From positions 1 to 28,605 of IMG/VR virus record IMGVR_UViG_3300025326_000164: a stretch of DNA of 28,605 bases; one strand, 5' to 3'. This document shows, one piece after another, positions 17,167-24,255 of the stretch (positions within the stretch are counted from its first letter, which is position 1; the number at the start of each line of letters is the position of its first letter). This DNA is from a virus. Below the pieces are notes generated by a model. It was not told where the DNA came from and made no database searches. It saw nothing but the letters and a program-made list of their open reading frames with translations. The translations under genes were made by a program, and so were the position numbers.

Positions 17167-18039
17167 ATGGAAATTTCCAAGTACATGGATGAGTATAGAA
17201 AAGAACTTGAGAGAAAGTTCTTTAGACCAAAGAGCATAGATGTATATGTTTCTTGTATTGGAGTATTTTTAAATTACTTCGACCAGAAGAAAACCCATCC
17301 AATAAAGATTAACGAATCGGACATTAAAGAATACCTATGGAAATTTGCTGAACAGAATACACAGCGGGCGCATCACTCGGCAATTAAATGTTTTTATAAA
17401 TACACTCTGAGGCAACCAAATAAATTTAAGTATATTGAATATGCGAAGCGCAATAGAAAACTTCCCATTGTTTTATCTATCGAAGAAATGCAGAGAATTA
17501 TATTTACTGCTTCTAACTTGAAACACAAAACAATTCTTTGCCTGATGTATTCTACCGGAATGAGGGTGGGAGAGGTAATCAATCTGAAACTATCCGACAT
17601 TGACCGCTCTCGTATGGTTATTAATATTCAGGATGCTAAAGGTGGAAAAGACAGGCAAGCTACTTTAGACCCTCTCGTATTACAATTAATGGAAATTTAT
17701 TACAGACAATATAAGCCGAATGTGTTTTTGTTTAATGGGCAATTTGATTTACGATATTCAGCAAGAAGTATCGCTCAGTTCTTACGGGACTATGCTTATA
17801 AAACGGGAATAAAAAAGAAAGTTCATCCGCATTTAATCAGACATTGCTATGCTACGCACTTATTGGAAGCGGGAATAGATATGTCGGTACTTCAAAAAGT
17901 ATTGGGGCATTCGTCTATTTCAACTACTCAGATTTACGGACACATCAGCAATAATATTGTTTCAAAAATTATTACCCCCGTTCAGTTTATTGCTAATAAA
18001 AACTTTCAACTGCCCACCCAACAAAGACTATCCGCATGA
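17167..18039 (+). CDS. Tyrosine recombinase (XerC/XerD-like integrase)
   Basis: 290 residues. N-terminal SAM-like core-binding domain 1-95, catalytic domain 100-270. Catalytic residues visible: Arg133 (TGMRVGE), Lys158 or Lys161 (AKGGKDR), His222 and Arg225 (HPHLIRH), His248 (LGHSS) and nucleophile Tyr257 (TQIYGH). It joins and exchanges DNA at specific sites. The length and the short region between the Lys and the H-x-x-R motif are Xer-like; the extra ~16-residue insertion that defines integron integrases is not evident. It starts 53 nt after the end of the cassette array and overlaps the next gene by 4 nt. It is either the phage integrase or the enzyme that moves the cassettes, or both. Confidence 0.85.
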   Translation: MEISKYMDEYRKELERKFFRPKSIDVYVSCIGVFLNYFDQKKTHPIKINESDIKEYLWKFAEQNTQRAHHSAIKCFYKYTLRQPNKFKYIEYAKRNRKLPIVLSIEEMQRIIFTASNLKHKTILCLMYSTGMRVGEVINLKLSDIDRSRMVINIQDAKGGKDRQATLDPLVLQLMEIYYRQYKPNVFLFNGQFDLRYSARSIAQFLRDYAYKTGIKKKVHPHLIRHCYATHLLEAGIDMSVLQKVLGHSSISTTQIYGHISNNIVSKIITPVQFIANKNFQLPTQQRLSA

Positions 18040-18586: not shown

Positions 18587-18630
18587 TTGATAACTTAATA
18601 TCAAAGATTTGAAAATTGGTTTTATATTTG
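18587..18630 (+). promoter_or_regulatory. Replication-gene promoter with operator-like palindrome
   Basis: TATATTTG (18623-18630) fits the TAnnTTTG -7 box; a clear -33 TTG at the right spacing is missing. Upstream, TTGATA-ACTTAA-TATCAA (18587-18604) is a perfect 6+6 palindrome that could bind a repressor or activator. Confidence 0.45.
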
Positions 18631-18752
18631 CAATGTAATTCAAAACTTGTCAATGAAAATAACCCTATTTACATTTTAAAATAAGTTCACAACGCGGAGG
18701 CGAACACTTCCTTTCTGACAAGTTTGGATTACATCGCCCCACGTTCGTGAAC
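18630..18752 (+). ncRNA. Candidate pseudoknot leader with interleaved inverted repeats
   Basis: Repeat A (18630-18652) pairs with A' (18716-18737): about 20 of 22 positions with a 1-nt bulge, core AAACTTGTCA / TGACAAGTTT. Repeat B (18685-18702, GTTCACAACGCGGAGGCG) pairs with B' (18735-18752) at about 15 positions. The order A-B-A'-B' means both helices together form a pseudoknot, or they exclude each other as a switch. It ends 13 nt before the initiator gene. A MITE-like insertion with 23-nt ends is an alternative reading of A/A'. Confidence 0.45.
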
Positions 18753-18765
18753 ATTTTTATTACAA

Positions 18766-19581
18766 ATGAGCAAGGAACTTCCATATTTTAAATTCATTCC
18801 GACCGAATATTTGCTCGGAACTATAAGTTTTCAGAAAGAAAAAATTCAGGGTACATTCACATTGGTCTGTTGCTACTACTGGCAAAGACATTGTGATATT
18901 ACCCTTACTTTGCTTAACCAGTTGTTAAGCAAACGTCAAGCAAACGTCAAGCAACTTATCAAAGCTGATATAGTGAAGCATGACGAAAAAACAGATAAAA
19001 TAAATATAGATTTTTTAGATGAACAATGGCATGAACTCAGTAATCTTTATGAAAAAAGAAGTAAGGCTGGAGCAATAGGAGGTAAGCAATCGTCAAGCAA
19101 TCGTCAAGCAATCGTCAACGATACCTCAAGCATTAAGATAGAGATAGAGAATAAGAAAGAGATAAAAGATAAAGATAAAGATTCCTTGCGAACTTTGTTC
19201 GCTGAAATGAAAAAGTTTTTTATGGAAGAATACAGAAAAAAAATAAACACAGATTATTATTGGGGCGCTAAAGATGCTGTTAATTTAAACCAATTAATCA
19301 CTAAAATTAAATACAAAATAAAAGAAAAAGAAAAACGCTCTGGCGAAAAAGAAAAAGAAAATTATGACGAAGAAATTTTAACCGGATTCAAGCATTTAAT
19401 ACTTTCATCAAAAGACAAATGGATTAACGCTCAATTTTCAATACCTATTTTTAATTCAAAGTTCAATGAAATATTTACTCAAATTTTAACTAACAATGGA
19501 AAACCAATTATCAACGCAAGAACAATGGCTGATGCTATGGAAAAAGAATTTAACCCAAAGCAAGGCAATACAGCTATTTGA
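18766..19581 (+). CDS. Replication initiator-like protein with internal origin
   Basis: 271 residues. The N-terminus (ELPYFKFIPTEYLLGTISFQ, then KIQGTFTLVCCYYWQRHCDI) has the look of phage replication proteins with a winged-helix DNA-binding domain (DnaD / lin1244-type). The middle is low-complexity and Lys-rich (about 124-143), a linker encoded by A-rich DNA, and the C-terminal part is helical. Its coding sequence contains 11-bp iterons and a palindrome, as in lambda gene O, so the protein probably binds its own gene to start replication. It has a dedicated promoter and folded leader, and overlaps the next frame. Confidence 0.6.
   Translation: MSKELPYFKFIPTEYLLGTISFQKEKIQGTFTLVCCYYWQRHCDITLTLLNQLLSKRQANVKQLIKADIVKHDEKTDKINIDFLDEQWHELSNLYEKRSKAGAIGGKQSSSNRQAIVNDTSSIKIEIENKKEIKDKDKDSLRTLFAEMKKFFMEEYRKKINTDYYWGAKDAVNLNQLITKIKYKIKEKEKRSGEKEKENYDEEILTGFKHLILSSKDKWINAQFSIPIFNSKFNEIFTQILTNNGKPIINARTMADAMEKEFNPKQGNTAI
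18909..19190 (+). other. Putative phage replication origin (iterons inside initiator gene)
   Basis: A perfect palindrome TTTGCTTAAC-cagtt-GTTAAGCAAA (18909-18933) leads into two tandem AAGCAAACGTC units (18927-18948) and a partial third. A second cluster holds three identical AAGCAATCGTC units (19084-19116) and a degenerate fourth. The 11-bp period is not a multiple of three, so encoded residues differ between copies and the repeat is conserved as DNA. A purine-rich, AT-rich tract (about 19128-19190) follows and could be the unwinding element. Confidence 0.6.
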
Positions 19582-20116
19582 AAATAAAGACAAAATGCTT
19601 TTAAGTCATATCTGTATTAATCTTACAGTAGAGCAAGCATTTAATAGCGGAGCGCATTTTGCTATATTAAAAAAGTGGAATGAACAAGGTATAACACTAA
19701 CTATTGCAACGATGCTAACAGAATTATTATTATCTGTTCCAAACAATATGACAACAGAAGACATTGTTTATATGGCAAGAAGTATAGTAATTGATAATGA
19801 AAACTGGAAGCCGGATGACATTCTCTTAATTTTTAGAAATGCAAAGCAAGGAAAATATGAAAAAATATACGGAAATTTTTCATATCAGGATTTTAATAAA
19901 TGGGCAGATGCTTATGCAAAAGAAAGACAAAATTATGTTGACAATAAACATTTATCTACCAAAGCCCCCATCACTACCACGATTGAAAGCAAGCAGAGAA
20001 TTTTCGAGGACAGGCAAAAACAATATCCTATCCTGAATGATAAGACAGAGAAGATAAATTTAGACGATGCTTTGAAATCACTTGGTAAATCAATAACCAA
20101 TGGCAAAGCGAGTTGA
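19496..20116 (+). CDS. Helicase-loader-like replication protein
   Basis: 206 residues if it starts at 19496, which overlaps the initiator by 86 nt; ATG 19532 or 19595 (after the upstream stop) are alternatives. The core LTIATMLTELLLSVPNNMTT followed by DIVYMARSIVIDNENWKPDD, then ILLIFRNAKQGKYEKIYGNF and NKWADAYAKERQ, matches a phage replication family seen after initiator genes, probably loading the DnaB helicase. Its C-terminus overlaps the nuclease gene by 17 nt. Role inferred from pattern and position. Confidence 0.5.
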   Translation: MENQLSTQEQWLMLWKKNLTQSKAIQLFENKDKMLLSHICINLTVEQAFNSGAHFAILKKWNEQGITLTIATMLTELLLSVPNNMTTEDIVYMARSIVIDNENWKPDDILLIFRNAKQGKYEKIYGNFSYQDFNKWADAYAKERQNYVDNKHLSTKAPITTTIESKQRIFEDRQKQYPILNDKTEKINLDDALKSLGKSITNGKAS

Positions 20117-20388: not shown

Positions 20389-22044
20389 ATGGGAAAGCAA
20401 GAATTGATAACTCAGGTATCTGCCGACAAGAAATATATCGGCTTTTGTAAAAAACTTCTCAAAGGAAATACACTGTATAAAGATTTATTTCAGGATTTAT
20501 TAGTAGAGCTTCTTGAATATCCTGATAAGAAATTTGATAAGATAGATTGCCAAGATTGTTTTGTTTTCAAGATGCTTTCCAATATGGTCAATTCCAAGAC
20601 CAGCAGATTCCATTACAAATACAGAAGGTCTGTTGACAAAGAGGAGTTTAAAAGAATTTACACAGACCATTACGACCATAGCATAGACACAAAGGCGGAG
20701 ATTGTTAATAAAACAATAAATAAATTATACTGGTATGATAAAAAAATACTACGTTTGTGGTTGAATGGAAAGAGCATACGCAGTATTTCAAAGGACAAGC
20801 ACATCCCTCTTTATTCCGTTCAGCAAACATTAAATAATGCACGGACGGAAATTAAAAGAGAAGTAAAAATGGATGAACTCGGACACCGATTAAGAGTATT
20901 ACTTGTTTGTCAGAGAGAAAAGACAGCTCTTCAATATCACAGGCAATACCAACCCCATGAACGCCTTAATAAAACAAACTCAGATTTTGCGGTAGAATTA
21001 ACCCACGGAGATGGGCAGGATGCGAACATTAACACAATGAGTGATGAGCAATTACAGCAGTATCAAATAATTTATTTCCTCCGCCAGATAAGTTTTGTAC
21101 CGGAAAATGTAAATCCAATTCTTATAAGATTAAAACGTCTTGGGTTAAAAGTAATTTTAGATATTGATGACTACTGGAATCTTCCGACTGAACATTACTG
21201 GTATAAATTATATAGCGATAAAAAGGTTGCCGATAATACCATTAACGCTCTCAGGCAAGTGGACTGGGTGATAACAACTACTCCATATTTTGCTGATAAG
21301 ATAAAAGAATTTAATTCTAATATAACGGTAATTCCAAACTGCATTTCTCCTGATGCGAAGCAGTTTGAAATAAGAAAAATAGAATCAGAAAAGTTAAGGT
21401 TCGGATGGATAGGCGGTCTATTTCATGTTCCAGACATAAAAGAAATTGAATCTAATTTTAAACTTTTAAACGAGCGACATCGAAACAGAGATATGGCAGA
21501 TAAATTTCAAGTATCAGTTGGTGGATTTAGTTGCAATTATCAATACAAGGAAATAGAAAAGACTTTTACCGCTGATTATTTTTTCCGAAATACCGATGCT
21601 ACGTATTACAATTACCTTCAGCAATGCACCCCTGCAATGGAACATATTTCTTTTAACAAGCCATATCGAAGGTTATGGGGAAGGAGTATAGAAACATACG
21701 GACAACTTTACAATGAGATAGATGTCGCCCTCGTCCCGCTGAAAGAAAATGAGTTCAACAAATGTAAAAGCGAACTAAAGATTGTTGAAGCGGGATGGAT
21801 GAAGAAAGCAGTAATTTGTTCCGACACTTCTCCATACAAAGAATGGATTAAGGATGGCGTTAATGGGTATTTAATAAAGCCGGAAAGAAAAAATTTAGAT
21901 TGGTATACAAGGATAAGGAAACTTACTATGAATCCTGAAATGGCAAAAGACATGGGTGAAGCATTGCATGAAACTATTAAAGAAAATTTTGATATGGATA
22001 AATGGAATATTACAAGAGCAGATTTATATAAAAGTTTGATATGA
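20389..22044 (+). CDS. Sigma-factor-like domain fused to glycosyltransferase (GT-B)
   Basis: 551 residues. Residues 1-160 look like a phage/ECF-type sigma factor: LYKDLFQDLLVELLEY (region-2-like), then NKLYWYDKKILRLWLNGKSI and SISKDKHIPLYSVQQTLNNA (region-4-like helix-turn-helix). From MDELGHRLRVLLVCQ (161 on; ATG 20869) a GT4-type glycosyltransferase follows, with RFGWIGG (337-343) and KSELKIVEAGWMKKAVICSD (460-479), the acidic nucleotide-sugar-binding motif, plus DGVNGYLI. No stop or frameshift separates the halves. Re-initiation at 20869 could make a free glycosyltransferase. It has its own promoter-like box and starts the glycan gene region. Confidence 0.7.
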   Translation: MGKQELITQVSADKKYIGFCKKLLKGNTLYKDLFQDLLVELLEYPDKKFDKIDCQDCFVFKMLSNMVNSKTSRFHYKYRRSVDKEEFKRIYTDHYDHSIDTKAEIVNKTINKLYWYDKKILRLWLNGKSIRSISKDKHIPLYSVQQTLNNARTEIKREVKMDELGHRLRVLLVCQREKTALQYHRQYQPHERLNKTNSDFAVELTHGDGQDANINTMSDEQLQQYQIIYFLRQISFVPENVNPILIRLKRLGLKVILDIDDYWNLPTEHYWYKLYSDKKVADNTINALRQVDWVITTTPYFADKIKEFNSNITVIPNCISPDAKQFEIRKIESEKLRFGWIGGLFHVPDIKEIESNFKLLNERHRNRDMADKFQVSVGGFSCNYQYKEIEKTFTADYFFRNTDATYYNYLQQCTPAMEHISFNKPYRRLWGRSIETYGQLYNEIDVALVPLKENEFNKCKSELKIVEAGWMKKAVICSDTSPYKEWIKDGVNGYLIKPERKNLDWYTRIRKLTMNPEMAKDMGEALHETIKENFDMDKWNITRADLYKSLI

Positions 22045-22049
22045 AAATC

Positions 22050-22123
22050 AGGAGCATAGCTCAGCCGGTCAGAGCATCTGGCTTACATCCAGAGAGTCGG
22101 GAGTTCGAATCTCTCTGCTCCTA
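22050..22123 (+). tRNA. tRNA-Val (anticodon UAC)
   Basis: Full cloverleaf: acceptor AGGAGCA / TGCTCCT (7 bp), D stem GCTC / GAGC, anticodon stem TCTGG / CCAGA with loop CTTACAT, variable loop GAGTC, T stem GGGAG / CTCTC with loop TTCGAAT, and discriminator A. The anticodon at 22084-22086 is TAC, reading valine GUA. CCA is not encoded. It lies 5 nt after the fusion gene. Confidence 0.95.
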
Positions 22124-22129
22124 CAAAGT

Positions 22130-22294
22130 GTCGGAACACAGAGGGGAAGAGTTTGTAAAATAAACGAAAGTATAGCAAAAGAAATAAAATTGAAATTAAA
22201 AAATGGATATAAACAAAATGAGTTAGCGAAAGAATACAATCTCAACCAAAGTAATATATCATATATTAAAAATAAAACATGGGCGCACGTATAG
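22130..22294 (+). pseudogene. C-terminal fragment of HNH homing endonuclease
   Basis: The frame ending at TAG 22292-22294 encodes IKLKLKNGYKQNELAKEYNL followed by NQSNISYIKNKTWAHV, a helix-turn-helix typical of the C-terminal DNA-binding domain of NUMOD/HNH endonucleases. It is open back to the tRNA but has no ATG (only an in-frame TTG), and no HNH domain is present. The last 16 nt overlap the next gene. It is probably a remnant of an endonuclease that once inserted here. Confidence 0.5.
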
Positions 22295-23016
22295 GAGTTG
22301 GAGTAACGACATACATCAGATTAAAACATTTAGAATTGTGTGTTAAACAAATAAAAAAACATACTTCTGATTATACCATTTATGTCGCCAATGATTCTAA
22401 AGAAAGAAAAGGAATTGCTTTTAGAAAAAATCAATGTTTGAAAGTATTAAAAGATTGTGATTATATATTTCTGTTTGACGATGATTGTTTTCCGATTAAA
22501 GAGGGATGGGCTGAATTTTTTATCGAAGCACATAAAGCAAGCGGACAGCATCACTTTATGTTTCTAAAAGAAACACCGACGATAAAAAGAATAGGGACAC
22601 ACATAGGGCAGATAGAATCTAATCAGGTATTAGATACAATGAAAATAAAAATATCTGCCAATGTGATAGAGATTTACGAATACAATAACTGCGCCGGTTG
22701 CTTTTTATTTCTTACTAAAGAAGTGATTGAAAAGGTGGGGGGATATGGGCAGTACCCAATGCCCTATGGGTTTGAACACGCCGGTTTTTCTCAAAGAATA
22801 TTTAATGCGGGGCTTACTCCTTTAGGCGCATACACTTGTCCTGCCGGCATTGAAGAGTATATTTATTCTATGGATTATATGTTTGATAAACCTTTTAATA
22901 AATTAGTTAATCATTCTCCGTCAATATCAAATGAATTTCATAAATTAGAAAGTTATTTAAAACAAAATCAGGAAGCATATATTAAAGATATACAAATTAT
23001 ATATCAGCCGTTATGA
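22279..23016 (+). CDS. GT2-like glycosyltransferase
   Basis: 245 residues. A GT-A fold is suggested by IGVGVTTYIRLKHLELCVKQ at the start and the metal-binding FDDDCFP at 66-72 (DxD-like). AGCFLFLTKEVIEKVGGYGQ followed by YPMPYGFEHAGFSQRIFNAG is the usual acceptor-side region, with an E-x-x-x-x-x-R-like pattern. It transfers a sugar from a nucleotide-sugar donor. It overlaps the following gene by 4 nt and heads a long operon of glycan genes. Confidence 0.7.
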   Translation: MGARIGVGVTTYIRLKHLELCVKQIKKHTSDYTIYVANDSKERKGIAFRKNQCLKVLKDCDYIFLFDDDCFPIKEGWAEFFIEAHKASGQHHFMFLKETPTIKRIGTHIGQIESNQVLDTMKIKISANVIEIYEYNNCAGCFLFLTKEVIEKVGGYGQYPMPYGFEHAGFSQRIFNAGLTPLGAYTCPAGIEEYIYSMDYMFDKPFNKLVNHSPSISNEFHKLESYLKQNQEAYIKDIQIIYQPL

Positions 23017-23699
23017 AATTCCTATACGCCTTCGCATCTCGCAGCCGTCCTGATAAATTTATAGCCGGCGTGGAGAATATTTATATCAATTCCCGCAATA
23101 AAAATTTTGACATACTTGCCGCTTTAGACATTGACGATACAACAATGAACAATGAAAACATGATTGAGAAGATGAAGCGATACGACAAACTATACCCGAT
23201 ATGGGGGGCTTCAAAAAACAAAATTGACGCTATCAACAGGGCAATGATACAAGCACCTGAATATGACTTGCTAATAAACATGAGTGATGATATGACTTTT
23301 ATTGAAAAGGGATATGATGAAATCATTGAAGCGGCAATGAATAAATATTTTCCTGACGGCGATTGCCTGCTTCATTTCCCAGACCAGAATCAAGGCGAAA
23401 ATTGCATGACCATGAGTATCATGGACAAGAAATATTATGAGCGGTTTAATTATATCTATCATTCTGATTATGAAAGTTTATGGTCAGACAAAGAAGCGGA
23501 AGATGTAGGTAAAATATTGGGCAGATACAAATTTATAAATAAAAGAATATTTAATCACTATCACCCTTCCTTCGGACATACGCCTTACGATAATCAGTAC
23601 GATAAAACAGAGGGCAGATATGACAGGGCGATAAGGGATAGGGATGAGCAGACATACATAAACAGAAAGGCAAATAATTTTTATTTGAATGTTACTTAG
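23013..23699 (+). CDS. GT-A-type glycosyltransferase-like protein
   Basis: 228 residues. MKFLYAFASRSRPDKFIAGV, a DYDLLINMSDD-type motif (SDD at 91-93) and the later NKRIFNHYHPSFGHTPYDNQ give the layout of GT-A enzymes, though the family assignment is less certain than for its neighbours. It overlaps both adjacent genes (4 and 11 nt). The target sugar is unknown. Confidence 0.6.
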   Translation: MKFLYAFASRSRPDKFIAGVENIYINSRNKNFDILAALDIDDTTMNNENMIEKMKRYDKLYPIWGASKNKIDAINRAMIQAPEYDLLINMSDDMTFIEKGYDEIIEAAMNKYFPDGDCLLHFPDQNQGENCMTMSIMDKKYYERFNYIYHSDYESLWSDKEAEDVGKILGRYKFINKRIFNHYHPSFGHTPYDNQYDKTEGRYDRAIRDRDEQTYINRKANNFYLNVT

Positions 23700-24255
23700 T
23701 ATTCTTGTCCCGTCCCTCGAAAGCAGAAGCCATGAGTTGGTTAACCTGAAGGCGGATTTATTCAGGCAGATAATTCATTGTAAGGCAGAGGACGATGTTG
23801 AAATACTTACCGATATTGACAATGGCGAGATGACTATTGGTGCAAAGCGAAACAGACTATTATCCCGGGCAGGCGGAAAGTATCTTGCTTTTTTCGATGA
23901 CGACGATTTCCCCGCATCCAACTATATAGAAAAACTGCTTGAATGTATTAAAACCGATTGTGATAATTGCTCCATGACAGGAGTGATTACCTGGGATGGA
24001 GAGCGACCTGAAATATTTGAACACTCATTGAAATACAAAGAATATAAAACCACCACGAATCCTGTTAAATACGAGCGTTATCCTAACCACCTTAATGTGA
24101 TTAAAAGTTCTATCGCAAAGCAGTTAAAGTTCCCAGAAATAAATCACGGAGAGGACACAGACTATGCAACTCAGATTTTTAAAAGTGGATTATTGAAAAA
24201 AGAAACTGCTATTGATGGAATACTTTATCATTATAATTATAAAACACACAAATGA
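23689..24255 (+). CDS. GT2 glycosyltransferase
   Basis: 188 residues. LLSILVPSLESR at the start, GAKRNRLLSRAGGKYLAFFD followed by DDDFP (68-75) are classic GT2 features: the nucleotide-binding strand, the R-N-x-x-L-x-x-A-x-G-x-Y motif and the metal-binding acidic cluster. HGEDTDYATQIF supplies the E-D catalytic region. Short but complete for a single-domain enzyme. Overlaps the next gene by 4 nt. Confidence 0.75.
   Translation: MLLSILVPSLESRSHELVNLKADLFRQIIHCKAEDDVEILTDIDNGEMTIGAKRNRLLSRAGGKYLAFFDDDDFPASNYIEKLLECIKTDCDNCSMTGVITWDGERPEIFEHSLKYKEYKTTTNPVKYERYPNHLNVIKSSIAKQLKFPEINHGEDTDYATQIFKSGLLKKETAIDGILYHYNYKTHK

Follow-up and report, generated by a model that had tools for sequence, protein, structure and literature searches.

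A probable replication origin built of one-turn iterons inside a phage initiator gene

We propose that the gene at 18766–19581 (plus strand; 271 aa) of a 28.6-kb virus record, the whole of which was analysed and is here called the window, is a phage replication initiator gene that holds the replication origin within its coding sequence, where it would be bound by the N-terminal domain (NTD) of its own product. We give this reading a probability of about 0.85. It is based on repeats, conservation at the DNA level, position, predicted fold and gene neighbourhood, and from these we infer that replication starts here, that the protein binds the iterons, that the adjacent purine tract melts and that a helicase is loaded. 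The initial annotation had placed an iteron origin in the initiator gene, and iteron conservation, a primase/helicase or DnaC-type neighbour in relatives and a predicted winged helix support that functional assignment. The window, probably from a Bacteroidota virus, encodes a portal protein and a tyrosine integrase. The gene product matches the phrog_29280 profile (E=6.8e-18, residues 1–134), whose function is listed as unknown, and a Pfam search of it returned zero matches; it is assigned as an initiator from the profile match together with the predicted NTD fold and the primase/helicase neighbours of its relatives. Three parts can be distinguished in it: a winged helix (residues ~12–80), a helix and linker (~82–140) and a variable C-terminal region.

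Two clusters of direct repeats, both with a period of exactly 11 bp, can be read from the plus strand of the gene. Cluster 1 (18927–18959, codons 54–65) consists of two copies of AAGCAAACGTC (18927–18937 and 18938–18948) and a partial unit, AAGCAACTTAT (18949–18959). Cluster 2 (19084–19138, linker codons) holds three copies of AAGCAATCGTC (19084–19094, 19095–19105 and 19106–19116), followed by the degenerate units AACGATACCTC (19117–19127) and AAGCATTAAGA (19128–19138). Exact AAGCAAWCGTC occurs five times in the 28.6-kb contig, always inside this gene, and the two highest-ranking lag-11 windows of the contig are these clusters. With a matrix made from cluster 2, cluster 1 scores 32.2, no site outside the gene exceeds 10.2, and no iterons are found in the region upstream of the gene. 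The two clusters thus stand as the initial annotation had described them (two units plus a partial one, and three plus degenerate ones), and so does the AT-rich purine tract that it had noted within the reading frame: at 19136–19185 (plus strand) lies a stretch of 80% purine and 74% A+T that adjoins the iterons and, by analogy with lambda and SPP1, is a candidate DNA unwinding element. What had been called a perfect 10-bp palindrome does have perfect 10-bp arms and does overlap the first iteron, but the arms are split by 5 nt, so that it is an inverted repeat (18909–18933, read directly from the sequence), with TTTGCTTAAC at 18909–18918 as the left arm, an inverted half-iteron, and GTTAAGCAAA at 18924–18933 as the right arm, which overlaps the first iteron.

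Relatives of the initiator were not found by a single-sequence search of IMG/VR, and phmmer against the PDB detected none; a scan of genome contigs gave only four loci. An alignment query of IMG/VR returned 331 relatives, of which 80 loci were kept, and these, together with phage records and the window, yielded a family set of 63 members below 90% identity. It thus comprises 62 distinct relatives besides the window, mostly from IMG/VR and from phages of Flavobacteriia, and 60 usable members were counted. Raw period scans were dominated by lags 6, 12 and 18, owing to the purine tract; in the period tests purine-rich windows were excluded, and the final counts also leave out these three lags. 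Synonymous shuffles, which leave every protein unchanged, served as the null model and make the comparison a DNA-level test for each member.

With purine-rich windows excluded, mean best-window matches across the family have maxima at lags 11, 22 and 33, in addition to lags 6 and 12 of the purine tract, and the best lag-11 windows gather at ORF nt ~125–151 and ~312–341. Relative to synonymous shuffles, the family sums at lag 11 reach z=16.6 in the linker (ORF nt 300–375) and z=9.1 in the winged-helix (wHTH) segment (ORF nt 120–190), with z=10.7 and z=9.2, respectively, at lag 22; the remaining lags that are not multiples of three lie between z=-7.4 and z=3.2. Among twelve lags, 11 was the best out-of-frame period in 50 of the 60 linkers and in 36 of the 60 wHTH segments (codons ~40–65); two control segments taken from these genes gave 2.2 and 5.2. 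Taken individually, 48 of 60 members have a linker array at p≤0.05; among the 12 that fall short, L040, L052 and L087 are poor, L079 has a period of ~10 bp and the rest have visibly degenerate arrays. The 48-nt stretch of the gene that is richest in purine begins within ORF nt 320–440 in 42 of 60 relatives, and in five complete phages as well as the window the top-scoring iterons fall within the initiator gene.

The letters of the unit change from lineage to lineage, while the place of the array, its 11-bp period and the A/G-rich tract that follows it persist. The unit is AAGCAATCGTC in the window, TAGCAATGCTA-like in many members, GCAATGCGACC in morran, AAGCCACCCTT in L048 and L074, AAACCCAAACG in L058 (with L062 similar) and TTCAACCACCC in L053. 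Conservation of the iterons despite protein drift had been put forward as a check on the origin, and relatives at ~25–46% identity do retain the 11-bp linker array, with differing units. Because 11 is not a multiple of three, successive units lie in different codon frames, and in 35 of 37 genes of the AGCAA group the units occupy two or three frames. A repeat that recurs in differing frames cannot be explained by the protein, and therefore the 11-bp arrangement is selected at the DNA level, as the initial annotation had argued from a period out of step with the codons. The lag-11 excess of the family bears this out, as does the window itself, whose best lag-11 window (22/22 and 28/33 matches) went unmatched in 5,000 synonymous shuffles of the gene. 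Two relatives (L029:3001-4125 and L076:3001-3999) have an additional domain inserted where the origin would lie, in the linker; that of L076 has a weak T5orf172 match (E=0.024), and by this resemblance such domains may be nucleases of the homing type, sited at the origin.

The NTD model is confident (pLDDT about 90–93 over residues 21–90), and its helices at 25–40, 47–53 and 55–66, followed by a beta wing at 71–80, show the order of a winged helix, in which helix alpha-3 (residues 55–66) is, by position, the predicted recognition helix. Fold matches of the NTD in the PDB are mostly winged-helix proteins, all of them weak, with a best E of 0.1 and none significant; the DnaD N-terminal domain is in the top ten, also weakly (E=0.13). 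Individual relatives match HTH_5, HTH_24, Rep3_C and the phage C-terminal domain Phg_2220_C. Cluster 1 coincides with the codons of the predicted alpha-3, so that the codons of a candidate reader spell out its candidate site. In the AGCAA-type branch one and the same unit is present in the wHTH codons and in the linker: the wHTH segment scores a mean of 12.9 against the unit of its own linker, compared with 8.95 (sd 0.55) against the units of other genomes, a value reached in 0 of 10,000 permutations. It is also the best further unit match within several kb in 23 of 46 loci, where ~1.6% would be expected. A wHTH cluster was sought in the AAACCC-type and AAGCCACCC-type groups and was not detected there. 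From these comparisons we infer that cluster 1 is a functional site. It would be tempting to go further and to suggest for one large branch that the stretch of DNA coding for the recognition helix also holds the target site of this helix, in which case reader and site could not mutate independently; we advance this as a tentative idea that is somewhat more likely to be wrong than right. If it is true, such coupling would be a built-in route of co-evolution to new origin specificities and phage incompatibility groups.

The neighbourhood of the gene is also of the replication type. Relatives of the initiator are present in Cellulophaga, Flavobacterium and Leeuwenhoekiella phages, annotated as 'hypothetical protein', and in annotated phages their genes stand upstream of one for a TOPRIM primase/helicase or a 'DNA replication protein', either immediately or at a distance of one gene. 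Among members of the metagenomic set, the following gene falls in a primase/helicase cluster in 31 and in a DnaC-like cluster in seven (neighbour clusters were named after the annotated phage members L005, L006 and L004). In the window this place is taken by an overlapping gene (19496–20116, plus strand; 206 aa) that matches phrog_35728, of unknown function, with E=2.5e-8. Neighbour clustering shows that it occupies the position usually held by a primase/helicase or helicase loader in relatives, but the window's gene itself has no recognisable helicase or loader identity, which counts against the initiator and origin reading. The protein encoded after the initiator in another genome, L012, ends, as judged by eye, in a DnaA domain-IV-like stretch (DHATVMHGIK), and this likeness suggests a host-type DnaA piece adjoining a phage initiator.

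Several further features of the surroundings were observed. The gap before the initiator gene (18620–18775) contains a strong hairpin (z=-3.96 for the 156-nt stretch, with none of 200 shuffles as stable), possibly a leader RNA, a terminator or a copy-control element, for which neither an Rfam nor a phage DNA match was found. Immediately downstream of the replication genes lies a cluster of glycosyltransferase-like genes (20389–24255), the first of which also has, in the N-terminal part, a stretch that weakly resembles a sigma factor. A tRNA-Val gene (anticodon tac) at 22050–22124 sits between two glycosyltransferase genes and may be a phage tRNA or the remnant of an attachment site; the integrase gene is at 17167–18039.

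Other explanations of the repeats have to be weighed against an origin. The iterons might be an intragenic operator through which the initiator or another regulator controls transcription of its own replication operon. Many initiators double as autoregulators, the iterons with the inverted half-iteron resemble operator arrays and a structured leader lies just upstream of the gene. However, the iterons are located 160–370 nt inside the gene, and the matrix finds none in the upstream region; a purine/A+T tract adjoins the array throughout the family, the gene neighbourhood is of the replication type, and the most similar architectures known (those of lambda O, SPP1 gp38 and pSK41 Rep) are origins, all of which makes an operator unlikely. 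An array of sites for something other than the encoded protein, either a host factor (DnaA or an IHF/HU-like protein) or a partition or recombination system, appears very unlikely. Partition and recombination proteins, too, use tandem sites at one-turn spacing, and the binding of the initiator to the iterons is putative; yet the array invariably lies within a gene for a DNA-binding protein and follows this gene, and its unit differs so strongly among phages that recognition by a conserved host protein such as DnaA would be precluded.

The repeats could also be a coding minisatellite, produced by replication slippage in a flexible linker and functionless as DNA. Low-complexity, lysine-rich linkers such as this one are a common place for slippage, but an 11-bp step shifts the frame, so that slippage could keep only multiples of 33 bp. 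Moreover, diverse units hold the 11-bp period at the same place, the matching cluster sits in an ordered helix rather than in a linker, and the result of the synonymous shuffles (0/5,000) speaks against the same idea, which is largely refuted and retains hardly any probability. An origin within the initiator gene is thus the reading that we prefer.

As an architecture, an in-gene phage origin is of an already known kind, and two of its elements, direct repeats in the initiator ORF and an adjacent A+T-rich tract, are present here. The ori of lambda, including that of Stx phages, likewise has direct repeats and an A+T-rich tract in the middle of initiator gene O, bound by the initiator, with replication gene P next, and its tract is also A/G-rich, like that of the window. 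It differs in its four (or six) iterons, for which the annotation gives a length of 18 bp and a spacing of ~20–24 bp, and in a best lag of 20, compared with 11 here; no iteron cluster is annotated in its helix codons. Neither the window protein nor any of 56 members has a Pfam match to the lambda O family. The parallel drawn earlier with lambda ori in an unrelated initiator therefore holds for the architecture and for the unrelatedness, and not as homology. In SPP1, oriL consists of direct repeats and an A+T-rich unwinding element inside gene 38, is bound by gp38 and is followed by helicase loader and helicase genes (PMC6316719); the likeness is one of description, and SPP1 has a second origin, oriR, of which no counterpart is seen here.

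The RepA_N initiators (pSK41 Rep and PLE RepA) are described as having an N-terminal winged helix, structurally DnaD-like, that binds repeats (PMC5703833, PMC7145576), and in pSK41 the repeats are reported to be central in rep, in the part that encodes the linker (PMC5703833). As far as these descriptions go, the family studied here shares with them an N-terminal winged helix, here predicted, and repeats in linker codons, and differs in repeat length (PMC7145576), in belonging to a tailed phage rather than a plasmid or satellite and in the second cluster, which is absent from these descriptions of RepA_N systems. Pfam matches to RepA_N (PF06970) and Lin1244_N/DUF4373 (PF14297) were found neither in the window protein nor among 56 members. 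In P1, oriL is said to lie inside repL and to be impaired by synonymous changes in an A/T-rich region (PMC9948254); an origin within the initiator gene would be common to both, and the abstract of that source names no iteron array. The rep gene of TP901-1 has a 15-bp repeat, not one of 11 bp.

Among DUF4373 initiators, those of fecal phage L007, Vibrio 1.155 and mEp515 show 11-bp linker arrays after the NTD and then a purine tract, with a marginal profile similarity of L007 to the window NTD (probability 33%). DUF4373 as a universal 11-bp family was rejected, as its members have a mixture of 11-bp, 21-bp or no period. Iterons spaced by one helical turn may be more widespread among phage winged-helix initiators. 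Three DUF4373-type loci (L092, L093 and L111) have, in the linker after the NTD, a 5-bp TAAAG-like purine-tract repeat out of codon frame, where the family of the window initiator has AAAGAT-like tracts. What is new in this family is that a one-turn period is conserved despite turnover of the unit, and that a second cluster lies within the predicted recognition-helix codons. A search of open-access literature found no description of the origin of this initiator family, which is not proof of absence.

Most likely the origin would work by the logic that is documented for lambda O, SPP1 gp38 and pSK41 Rep. The winged helix of the NTD would bind the 11-bp direct repeats, one unit per helical turn, such that protomers could stack on one face of the DNA, on the linker cluster first, with binding probably extending to the cluster in the NTD's own helix codons. 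The resulting nucleoprotein array would strain and open the adjacent A+T- and purine-rich tract, after which the C-terminal part and the product(s) of the downstream gene(s) would recruit the replicative helicase. A GC-skew extremum at this point, named in the initial annotation as a check, was not found at the gene in the window, whose skew is uninformative; in five complete phages the GC-skew minimum lies ~4–6 kb upstream of the gene, which is suggestive but confounded by gene orientation and is therefore not counted among the evidence.

If the origin reading is right, a family annotated as 'hypothetical proteins', of which IMG/VR has 331 relatives or more, gains a probable function as initiator and origin, and phages such as Cellulophaga phi19:1 and Flavobacterium morran gain a probable origin position. 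A winged helix, a linker with an out-of-frame period of 11 bp and then a purine tract would together provide a simple, sequence-only signature for phage origins. The diverged iterons and their initiators form a natural series, useful for studying how initiator–origin pairs change and how cross-initiation is avoided.
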